This document shows positions 33,034-36,033 of a stretch of DNA of 64,000 bases, piece by piece. The stretch lies in contig JAOASC010000046.1 of the NCBI GenBank assembly GCA_025210295.1, forward strand, positions 62,001 to 126,000. Direction: 5' to 3'. Position 1 is the stretch's first letter; each line of letters starts with the position of its first letter. The position numbers and the translations under genes are program-made. This DNA comes from Flavobacteriales bacterium (GTDB taxonomy: Bacteria > Bacteroidota > Bacteroidia > Flavobacteriales_D > Parvicellaceae). The notes below the pieces were generated by a model that was not told where the DNA came from, did not search any database, and was given only the letters and a program-made list of their open reading frames with translations.

Positions 33034-33069
33034 GAAAAACTCGAAGCATAAATAAACTTCGAGTTTTTC
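33034..33069 (-). terminator. Rho-independent terminator after the SiaC homologue
   Basis: A 13-bp inverted repeat (GAAAAACTCGAAG and its complement, 33034-33046 and 33057-33069) with a 10-base loop. On the minus strand it ends in a T run, 19 bp beyond the stop codon of the gene at 33089. Confidence 0.85.
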
Positions 33070-33088: not shown

Positions 33089-33484
33089 TTAATCTGGTAT
33101 TTCAACAAAATTAAATTCCACATCTAACATATCTTCAAATTCTTCTCCAGCATCTAACATATCTTCATCCATTTCATCATAGTGCCAGTTAATGTTTAAG
33201 GTTACATTCCCAGGCTCAGCTATTTTTCCTAATTTTAAGATAATATCCATGATATACTTCGCTGATGAAGAGTTAAAATACTCTAATTTAAAATTTGCAT
33301 TTAAGGTAACATCTCCAGCCGATTGAACATAGCTCTCATAATCATTCAACCAATTCATTACAGGCTGAAAAAACTTCTGAACATCTTCAGGTCTTGAATC
33401 TCCTTCAAATTCTAATGCATGTGTTGTATGATCTAATACTATTTTTGGAGTATTCTCCGTTAATTCTAGTTTTAATGCTTCCAT
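33089..33484 (-). CDS. siaC: SiaC-family regulatory phosphoprotein (DUF1987)
   Basis: A 131-residue cytoplasmic protein of the SiaC/DUF1987 family. In Pseudomonas SiaC is a phospho-switch: dephosphorylated SiaC activates the diguanylate cyclase SiaD, and the SiaB kinase phosphorylates it. The family signature FNSSSAKYI lies at residues 70-78, and Ser72 stands where the phosphorylated Thr (Thr68 in the Pseudomonas protein, from memory) is found. The N-terminal IVLDHTTHALEFEGDSRPED and a C-terminal acidic tail with EEFEDMLDVEFNFVEIPD complete the family pattern. The SiaB homologue is encoded 11 bp upstream. No SiaD-type GGDEF gene is in the window. Confidence 0.82.
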   Translation of the reverse strand: MEALKLELTENTPKIVLDHTTHALEFEGDSRPEDVQKFFQPVMNWLNDYESYVQSAGDVTLNANFKLEYFNSSSAKYIMDIILKLGKIAEPGNVTLNINWHYDEMDEDMLDAGEEFEDMLDVEFNFVEIPD

Positions 33485-33495
33485 TTTTATTTGTT

Positions 33496-34041
33496 TTATG
33501 CAAGTATGTCTACTCTAAGAGTAAAAAAATGTTTGTCTTTTATATGTTTATCAAAATTATATTGTAATTGACTCCCAGACTTCATCGCCATATCGATCAA
33601 TCCTAATCCTGCACCACCTTTATCTGATATAGTAGCTTCTTTTATCATCTCTCTATACCTGAGTTTTAACATCTCAGCATTCATAGCATTAACTTCTTCT
33701 ATACGAGCTTTAATAGGCTCTACATCTGAAGATTTAACTACATTTCCTACTACTACAGAAAAGCCCGCTTCTTCTTGTAAAAGGGTAAAAACTCCTTCAT
33801 TTAAATGCTCGTCTTCTATCGTTGGTTTGCTAGTATGTCTATGTACATTTTCTAAGCACTCTACAAGTACTTTGTATGTTTTTTTTGCAGCCCTTTTTTT
33901 ATCTTGATATAAAGAAAGTTCTTTCTTTATATCAGTCAACAAAGTATTTACTAGTTTATAATTAAACTCCCCATGGAAAACATAAATAACTTTCCCATTG
34001 GTCATCAAATTAAAAATATCTAATATACTCTGTGCTTTCAT
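33496..34041 (-). CDS. siaB: SiaB-family protein kinase (HATPase_c fold)
   Basis: A 181-residue kinase of the SiaB/DUF6272 family, which in Pseudomonas phosphorylates SiaC. It has a histidine-kinase-like ATP fold: an N box in ENVHRHT at 64-70 and a G box in DKGGAGLGLIDMA at 140-152. The start at 34041 is chosen over a longer frame to 34095 because the longer frame would overlap the stress-protein gene by 32 bp. The 34041 start has AGGAAGA about 13 bp upstream and fits family length. The pairing with the SiaC homologue is the strongest support for the call. No SiaA-type PP2C phosphatase is visible here. Confidence 0.82.
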   Translation of the reverse strand: MKAQSILDIFNLMTNGKVIYVFHGEFNYKLVNTLLTDIKKELSLYQDKKRAAKKTYKVLVECLENVHRHTSKPTIEDEHLNEGVFTLLQEEAGFSVVVGNVVKSSDVEPIKARIEEVNAMNAEMLKLRYREMIKEATISDKGGAGLGLIDMAMKSGSQLQYNFDKHIKDKHFFTLRVDILA

Positions 34042-34063
34042 TCTTTTTTTTCTTCCTAAAGGT

Positions 34064-34891
34064 TTATCTAGTAAAAACACTTCCTGAATTCCCAATATAA
34101 ACAGGGTTTACACAAAGCACAGGAATTTGGCTCTTGTTCGTAATTATTTCTTGTTCATAATTACTCAACATTCCAATTAAAGAGTTCTTTTGTAAATTCA
34201 TAATAGAAATCAAATCTGCATCTACCTCATTTGCAACCTCTAACATTTGCTCTACAAAATCTCCTTTTTTCTTCGAAATATGAGTAGTATTTCTTACTCC
34301 TCTCTCTTTAAGATATTTTTTAGCCCAAGCAATATTTCCATTTAACTTGTGAATTAAAAATTCATCCGTCTCTTTAGGTGTTACAATATGAACTTCCGAA
34401 TCAAAGTATTGCGCCATATCAGCAACAACCTCTAACTTTTGCTTTGTTTCATTATGCAAATCTAATGGAGCAATAATACAATCATATCCAGATTCTTTCA
34501 TCACTTGCTTCTGAACAACCACAAAAGGCACAGTTGAATTGGTGATTACTTTTAGTGCATTACTACCTGTAATTCTTTGCCATCCACTAGCTCCATGAGT
34601 TCCCATAACAATTAATGAAGCATTCACTTCATTGGCAGCATCTCCAATATCATCAAATATATTTCCAACTTTTACCAGTTTCGAAACTTCTACATCTCCT
34701 TCAATGCTTTTCGCTAACTTCAATTCTTCTTCTAATTTTTCATTAGCTGAATGAATTTCAGACTCCCCCTTCACCACATGTAATATTACAACCGAAGTAT
34801 TGATTGTCTTTGCCAATTCAACAGCATGATTTATAGCTGTATGAGCAACTTCAGTGAAATCTGTTGGTACTAAAATTGGTTTTGTACTCAT
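34064..34891 (-). CDS. Tandem universal stress protein (UspA)
   Basis: A 275-residue cytoplasmic protein with two UspA-like domains. The first (about 1-135) has the start ILVPTDFTEVAHTAINHAVELA and the ATP-binding-type loop MGTHGASGWQRITGSNALKV, which has eight residues, not the canonical nine, between the GxxG and GS parts, a spacing I have seen in other Bacteroidota. The second domain (about 140-270) keeps the fold (IIAPLDLHNETKQKLEVVADMA) but its loop region (NLQKNSLIGMLSNYEQEI) lacks the glycine motif, so it probably does not bind ATP. It lies 22 bp upstream of the siaB homologue, so it is likely co-transcribed with siaB-siaC. Confidence 0.85.
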   Translation of the reverse strand: MSTKPILVPTDFTEVAHTAINHAVELAKTINTSVVILHVVKGESEIHSANEKLEEELKLAKSIEGDVEVSKLVKVGNIFDDIGDAANEVNASLIVMGTHGASGWQRITGSNALKVITNSTVPFVVVQKQVMKESGYDCIIAPLDLHNETKQKLEVVADMAQYFDSEVHIVTPKETDEFLIHKLNGNIAWAKKYLKERGVRNTTHISKKKGDFVEQMLEVANEVDADLISIMNLQKNSLIGMLSNYEQEIITNKSQIPVLCVNPVYIGNSGSVFTR

Positions 34892-35003: not shown

Positions 35004-35402
35004 TTAGTTTTTAAAAATTCCTCTTTTATTAATTTTTAAAATTTTCATTAAGGCTTTAATTTCGATCAATGTATAGACAAAAAACCATAAAAAAACATGT
35101 AATAATGCCTGAGTTTTTGAAATTTCAAAAGCTGTTTTTAACCAATAGATATATCCCAAAAAAGTAAAAAACTTAATGGAAGCAATTCCTATATACACCA
35201 CCCACACACGATCATAGTTTTTAACTGATTTCTTAGCGATAATCCAATTCGTTAGTACTAGAAAAACAAGATAAAAGAGGTGTAAACAGACAATAAAGCT
35301 TAAACTGACCTTAATTGCTAATAAATAATTAATTAGGATATGAACTAAACAAATCAGAACTCCTATTCCCCCTAATTTCATGGAAGAGTATATTTTTTCC
35401 AT
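35004..35402 (-). CDS. Small four-helix membrane protein, DUF6168-like
   Basis: A 132-residue protein with four hydrophobic segments (about residues 9-28, 33-53, 67-87 and 99-118) and a basic C-terminus (KALMKILKINKRGIFKN). The Bacteroidota ATP synthase accessory region usually contains bactofilin, AtpZ, a DUF6168 membrane protein, then atpB. This gene is in the DUF6168 slot, beginning 1 bp after the AtpZ stop codon. I have not matched the sequence itself, so the family name rests on size, topology and position. Confidence 0.6.
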   Translation of the reverse strand: MEKIYSSMKLGGIGVLICLVHILINYLLAIKVSLSFIVCLHLFYLVFLVLTNWIIAKKSVKNYDRVWVVYIGIASIKFFTFLGYIYWLKTAFEISKTQALLHVFLWFFVYTLIEIKALMKILKINKRGIFKN

Positions 35403-35601: not shown

Positions 35602-36033
35602 TTAAGCGACAACTTCCTCTTCTTTTCTTTCTTTATTTTCTATAGATTTTTTAGATGGCGAAACTCCACCCATACTACAAGTTACAGCAAAAATTGCTCC
35701 TGGCTCAATCGCTAGTTTACCTGTTATGACGTCTCCCTCTACTTTTGCTGTTGACTTTAAAGAAAGTAACTCCCCTACTTTCATTGATCCTTTTACATGA
35801 CCTTCTATCTCAGCATTCTGACAAACAACATCGCCTTTAATAACTCCAGATACACCTACAACTAACCTCCCTTTGGTGGTAATCGTACCTTTTACCTCTC
35901 CATCTATTCTAATATTGCTCTCAGAAGAAATACTCCCTTCAATACTTGTCCCTTCAACTATTCTATTTAATCTTTCTGGAGAATTTAAATTACCCATTCT
36001 ACTTTTTGTGTTATCGTTATTATTTTTAAACAT
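35602..36033 (-). CDS. Bactofilin (polymer-forming cytoskeletal protein)
   Basis: A 143-residue cytoskeletal protein. The core (about 25-115) is the bactofilin beta-helix, with its repeated turns visible: GSISSESNIRIDGEVKGTI, GRLVVGVSGVIKGDVVC, AEIEGHVKGSMKV and STAKVEGDVITGKL. Short polar tails flank it, including a charged C-terminus (KSIENKERKEEEVV). Bactofilins form filaments at the membrane and guide shape, stalk formation or motility. The promoter at 36050-36083 would drive this gene and, by tight spacing, atpZ and the DUF6168-like gene. Confidence 0.9.
   Translation of the reverse strand: MFKNNNDNTKSRMGNLNSPERLNRIVEGTSIEGSISSESNIRIDGEVKGTITTKGRLVVGVSGVIKGDVVCQNAEIEGHVKGSMKVGELLSLKSTAKVEGDVITGKLAIEPGAIFAVTCSMGGVSPSKKSIENKERKEEEVVA

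Follow-up and report, generated by a model that had tools for sequence, protein, structure and literature searches.

Partner switches of the SpoIIAA/RsbV-RsbW-RsbU/P type are built from a kinase, a STAS-like phosphoprotein and a PP2C phosphatase. Universal stress proteins (Usp) are widespread, with partners that are mostly unknown. In Pseudomonas aeruginosa, SiaB phosphorylates SiaC at T68, SiaA reverses this modification, and SiaC binds and activates the diguanylate cyclase SiaD (PMC7647112, PMC8457831). Phosphorylation of Thr68 was demonstrated experimentally, and the nearest fold to SiaC outside its own family is that of an anti-sigma factor antagonist (PMC7647112).

A locus of a Flavobacteriales bacterium brings these elements together in an unusual combination, as genes for a SiaB-SiaC pair follow a gene for a tandem Usp. 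The window, i.e. the whole 64-kb stretch of DNA that was analyzed, corresponds to positions 62001-126000 of contig C46 in a 4.2-Mb assembly (48 contigs, 95% complete). Usp, SiaB and SiaC are encoded in this order on the minus strand, with all three genes within 22 bp of each other, and are presumably co-transcribed:

34064..34891, minus strand: tandem universal stress protein of 275 aa, the first gene of the operon (PF00582, two stretches)
33496..34041, minus strand: SiaB-family serine/threonine kinase of 181 aa (NF038262 above the curated cut-off; PF19788)
33089..33484, minus strand: SiaC phosphoprotein of 131 aa with a predicted STAS-like fold (PF09345; 6kko/6k4f by sequence)
33034..33069, minus strand: intrinsic-terminator-like hairpin of 14 pairs with a T-rich tail at the end of the operon (pattern scan)

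The intergenic gaps amount to 22 bp between Usp and SiaB and 11 bp between SiaB and SiaC, with the ATG at 34041 taken as the SiaB start. This codon appears to be the best choice, because an ORF beginning at TTG 34095 would overlap Usp. The pattern scan returned two terminator-like sites in the 4-kb region versus 1.3 expected; hence, the argument is the position of the hairpin rather than the number of sites. The trio described in an earlier note on this DNA is thus borne out in its coordinates, gene identities, spacing of at most 22 bp and single terminator-like hairpin. Its wording "fused in an operon" applies to the operon-like layout, but not to the proteins, which are encoded by three adjacent, separate genes. 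Since five genomes of the genus retain the block (80-89% identity for SiaB, 82-88% for SiaC and 76-84% for Usp), the arrangement is beyond chance; in a sixth member, G033, Usp is cut by a contig end.

Both switch proteins are recognizable members of their families. SiaB passes the NF038262 cut-off (E 1.6e-39, 135.3 bits versus 85), matches PF19788 (E 3e-33) as well as P. aeruginosa SiaB (6kko_A, E 4e-12) and contains the N and G boxes that had been attributed to it (E61/N65 and G142-G147). SiaC matches PF09345 (E 6e-34, 116.7 bits versus a cut-off of 24.5). The P. aeruginosa-type equivalog models are both missed, with 76.6 versus 225 bits for SiaB (NF038264) and 77.8 versus 150 for SiaC (NF038265). 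The decisive residues are located as follows:

33847..33861, minus strand: SiaB N box, E61-CLE-N65, likewise conserved in P. aeruginosa SiaB and in every relative aligned
33601..33618, minus strand: SiaB G box, GGAGLG (residues 142-147), which corresponds in the alignment to SGAGLG in the P. aeruginosa protein
33269..33271, minus strand: codon of SiaC Ser72, the predicted phosphosite and equivalent of P. aeruginosa Thr68 (alignment and predicted model)

Ser72 had previously been put forward as the switch residue, and this assignment stands: the alignment pairs it with the phosphosite Thr68 of the P. aeruginosa protein (phosphopeptide LLYLNTSSIK), it is invariant among eight aligned sequences and, in the predicted SiaC model (pLDDT 83.5), is the first residue of helix 2 (72-89), so that the modelled protein combines a STAS-like fold with a Ser/Thr at the N-terminus of this helix. 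The closest solved folds to the model are all SiaC entries (7e6g, 6kkp, 6kko and 6k4f; TM 0.75-0.81), and its PDB matches include SiaC-SiaB and SiaC-SiaD complexes.

The genome encodes four SiaB and seven SiaC matches in total. A second SiaB-SiaC pair adjoins a cytidylate-kinase-like gene in most genera of the family (e.g. L073 and L075; L032:8662-10383 in the genome itself) and is possibly a conserved, core SiaBC module. The SiaC paralogue on contig C33 (L033:8775-9167) carries Ile at the Thr68-equivalent position (YFNIVSSKR), and the only clear RsbW-like HATPase of the genome is encoded 3.7 kb away from it. On contig C45 (L034:8829-19001, L039:1503-4649), a lone SiaC heads a T9SS-type gene run with a CHU_C/HYR protein, PorP/SprF and a PD40/PKD protein, which ends with a propeller-Y_Y_Y-SpoIIE phosphatase. 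The type IX secretion cluster is hence enclosed between a SiaC and a PP2C, which may hint at outputs other than c-di-GMP. In addition, a tandem pair of SiaB domains is encoded within one and the same ORF (about 310-380 aa) in members of the family and of others of the order (L091:5410, L092:5531, L094:5868, L216:756, L300:1354), often followed by SiaC.

The most evident departure from the Pseudomonas module concerns its output. The earlier note had described the pair as lacking SiaD and suggested an output other than c-di-GMP, and both statements extend from the window, in which neither GGDEF nor PP2C is encoded, to the entire assembly: a whole-genome profile search, in which control genomes gave matches, found no GGDEF domain (assembly 95% complete) and thus no SiaD-type protein. 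This makes c-di-GMP very unlikely as the output; as far as the assembly reaches, a diguanylate cyclase can be excluded as the output in this genome, and across the order such an output would be atypical. SiaC (scored at E 1e-25 or better) is present in 104 of 199 genomes of the order, while GGDEF exceeds the cut-off in merely five of the 199, all of them SiaC-bearing, which leaves 99 of the 104 without any GGDEF. The only GGDEF of the genus lies in G030 (contamination 7%) on a 5-kb contig (L291, G030:C457) together with a ribosomal L28 gene unlike that of the genome under study. As judged from sequence, this foreign-looking L28 marks the contig as likely contamination, and the gene was set aside. 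In the cited work, the role known for SiaC is to activate a diguanylate cyclase; with none present, SiaC must serve another job here, and the same puzzle is posed by nearly all sampled SiaC-bearing genomes of the order, in which no such cyclase was found. The output of the switch is therefore probably not c-di-GMP and different from that in Pseudomonas. However, PP2C-SiaB-SiaC operons without SiaD are common in Bacteroidota, also in other families and classes (G254, G351, G330, G338), and as such operons are ordinary, the missing SiaD does not distinguish the locus. Its less ordinary part is Usp.

The second component reported as missing, SiaA, has to be viewed differently. While no PP2C is encoded in the operon or the window, 36 SpoIIE/PP2C matches are distributed over the 4.2-Mb genome, which rules out that SiaA-type phosphatases are missing from it and speaks against the claim "without SiaA" beyond the locus itself. 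High numbers of PP2Cs are a common feature of genomes in the family. The closest relatives of the window pair outside the genus are found in the sister genus (g8; 47-50% identity for SiaB, 54-60% for SiaC), where a TPR-TM-PAS-SpoIIE(PP2C) protein of about 790 aa is encoded directly upstream of SiaB, by its domains a sensor-linked phosphatase in the SiaA position. A protein with the same TPR-TM-PAS-PP2C architecture is encoded on contig C26 of the genome under study (L095:5879-8248), and closely related proteins occur in the genus. Over their full length, this protein and the g8 operon PP2C are reciprocal best matches, with 27-33% identity over about 750 aa (27% to G029, 31% to G026 and 33% to G027), and the next matches in g8 and in this genome cover little beyond the PP2C catalytic domain. 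In a tree of 83 PP2C domains, the C26 protein was not resolved as an orthologue of the g8 SiaA; hence, with reciprocal-best full-length matching as its sole backing, it is a candidate, albeit the best one, for a phosphatase that might act on the window SiaC in trans.

Usp itself is assigned by its match to PF00582 (106 bits) in two tandem domains, and its relatives by profile are MJ0577 (1mjh) and 3loq. Its first domain contains a glycine motif:

34562..34603, minus strand: MJ0577-like motif of Usp domain 1, G97-x2-G100-x8-G109-S110 (sequence)

With G-x2-G-x8-G-S in place of the usual G-x2-G-x9-G-S/T, this motif is short by one residue. Across 29 orthologues, conservation reaches 95% or more at G97, G109 and S110 but stays below 95% at G100, and domain 2 is devoid of this motif. 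Although shortened, the motif renders an ATP- or energy-linked input from Usp to SiaB or SiaC plausible, and Usp might act as the stress sensor that feeds the SiaBC switch.

The history of the locus bears on this possibility. Orthologues of Usp are encoded in 38 of 39 genomes of the family (47-84% identity) and are clearly distinct from a second Usp paralogue. Two genes upstream of Usp in the window belong to its ancestral context among the nine genera (g1, the genus under study, to g9):

35602..36033, minus strand: bactofilin (PF04519), the ancestral upstream neighbour of Usp, with the order bactofilin-Usp in g1-g5, g7 and g8
35004..35402, minus strand: small membrane protein, encoded between the genes for bactofilin and Usp, without a match in a Pfam search; a similar-sized ORF occupies the same place in g1, g2, g4 and g8

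In g3, g4, g5 and g7, the order is bactofilin-Usp-lysS, with small membrane proteins after bactofilin in some; g2 and g8 keep bactofilin beside Usp, and the downstream genes differ. As SiaBC fills the slot downstream of Usp within this ancestral context in g1, it was SiaBC that moved next to Usp rather than Usp to SiaBC. Usp adjoins SiaBC again in g6 (G014), where SiaB-SiaC-Usp is accompanied by a convergent PP2C, and in g9 (three genomes), where Usp and a SiaB-PP2C-SiaC operon are divergently oriented; bactofilin is absent from the stretches read around Usp in both. The linked pairs represent three subfamilies, in which g1 groups with g8, g6 with g2, and the g9 SiaB with a pair on contig C24 of the genome under study. 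Three fully independent linkages would follow at face value, yet the Usp tree groups g6 with g9 as its sister, so that there may have been two rather than three. The count was therefore toned down to at least two, with three being probable. In a rough model assuming 3-7 SiaBC loci among 2500-3500 genes, the chance of at least two adjacencies in about six further contexts is ~1e-4 (4e-5 to 5e-4), which weakens to ~0.01-0.03 if there was a single further linkage event. The co-occurrence of Usp with siaBC, which the earlier note had proposed to look for across Bacteroidota, holds within the family, in five genomes of the genus and again in g6 and g9, but neither in the six other genera nor at SiaC loci in other families of the order (0 of 43, with 1.5-3.5 kb read on each side); it hence looks like a family trait. 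Recurrent, separate linkage suggests a functional coupling of Usp and SiaBC.

The main rival to a modulatory role is that Usp is merely co-expressed, i.e. that SiaBC inserted behind a stress-inducible Usp and uses its promoter, with no molecular contact between the proteins and a PP2C acting in trans as usual. This is a serious possibility, if one that we rather doubt. It agrees well with the ancestral position beside bactofilin that Usp keeps in most of g1, with SiaBC sitting where other genera have lysS or other genes, and with the six of nine genera (g2-g5, g7 and g8) in which Usp is not linked to SiaBC, so that any coupling is not obligatory. Mere co-expression is harder to reconcile with g6 and g9, where the same Usp orthologue adjoins SiaBC of other subfamilies after having left bactofilin, with genus member G032, where the Usp-SiaB-SiaC block stays intact without bactofilin upstream, and with G030, from which the Usp orthologue and the window-type SiaBC pair are absent together.

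It is improbable that the window pair lacks a dedicated output and instead signals by cross-talk to the one RsbW-like HATPase or to some other partner-switch branch of the genome. The seven SiaC, four SiaB and 36 PP2C matches, along with a clear HATPase_c_2 protein encoded close to SiaC on C33, would provide the parts, but in the SiaB tree as well as in the SiaC tree the window proteins fall with those of g8 into a subfamily of their own, which suggests specificity. Highly improbable, and rejected here, is that Usp replaces SiaA by antagonizing SiaB or by standing in for the phosphatase in a module without one: although in g8 a PP2C gene sits directly upstream of SiaB, as Usp does in the window, SiaBC moved behind a Usp that in g1 still has bactofilin as its ancestral neighbour rather than Usp entering a SiaA slot, g6 and g9 have PP2Cs next to their Usp-SiaBC genes, 36 PP2C matches remain in the genome, and Usp proteins are not known to be phosphatases.

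The reading that we prefer, and which we consider evenly poised, is a SiaBC switch that is modulated by Usp, served by a PP2C acting in trans and directed to an output other than c-di-GMP. SiaB would phosphorylate Ser72 of SiaC at the expense of ATP, a chemistry transferred from P. aeruginosa, and one of the many SpoIIE/PP2C proteins, for which the C26 TPR-TM-PAS-PP2C is the best candidate, would dephosphorylate it in trans. The parts for these kinase and phosphatase steps are present as kinase motifs, phosphosite, predicted fold and PP2Cs elsewhere in the genome. Depending on its phosphorylation state, SiaC may then bind or not bind an output protein that is not a GGDEF diguanylate cyclase; as the assembly holds no GGDEF, this step must use another partner. 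Usp, conceivably an ATP- or stress-responsive partner, would most likely tune SiaB, i.e. the kinase side, or hold SiaC, and the energy or stress state would set the switch through Usp. More broadly, and more tentatively, Usp could be a dedicated input component of SiaBC-type Ser/Thr switches with a non-c-di-GMP output in one Flavobacteriales-type family, a generalization that falls somewhat short of an even prospect. If true, this would provide a defined signalling partner for Usp proteins, about whose molecular targets little is known. One Usp orthologue recurrently linked to three SiaBC subfamilies offers concrete proteins with which to test for the output of SiaC and for partners of Usp.

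Among the papers searched, none ties Usp to PP2C partner switching, DUF1987/DUF6272 is mentioned only in the SiaC-SiaD paper, and there is no report of the Usp operon, the repeated Usp-SiaBC linkage or the near-total absence of GGDEF from SiaC-bearing genomes of the order. The switch itself is of an already known kind. With SiaABCD of P. aeruginosa (PMC7647112, PMC8457831; 6kko, 6k4f, 7e6g), it shares the N and G boxes of SiaB, the adjacency of SiaB and SiaC, the phosphosite at the start of helix 2 and, according to the model, the SiaC fold. It differs in that the genome is devoid of SiaD or any GGDEF, the operon lacks a PP2C (with a candidate in trans) and starts with Usp, the phosphosite is Ser instead of Thr, and both SiaB and SiaC remain below the curated cut-offs of the equivalog models. 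The logic of kinase, STAS-like phosphoprotein and PP2C is also that of SpoIIAA/RsbV-RsbW-RsbU/P, although SiaB and SiaC are separate families and the locus has no sigma factor or anti-sigma partner. The PP2C-SiaB-SiaC operons of g8 and other Bacteroidota families have the same order of SiaB and SiaC, with orthologous proteins (47-60% identity in g8) and likewise no GGDEF above the cut-off in g8, but start with a sensor-linked SpoIIE phosphatase where the window has Usp. Finally, the bactofilin-Usp loci of the family share the orthologous Usp, the upstream bactofilin and, in several genera, the small membrane proteins, yet they continue with lysS, ruvB or other genes, whereas the window continues with SiaBC.
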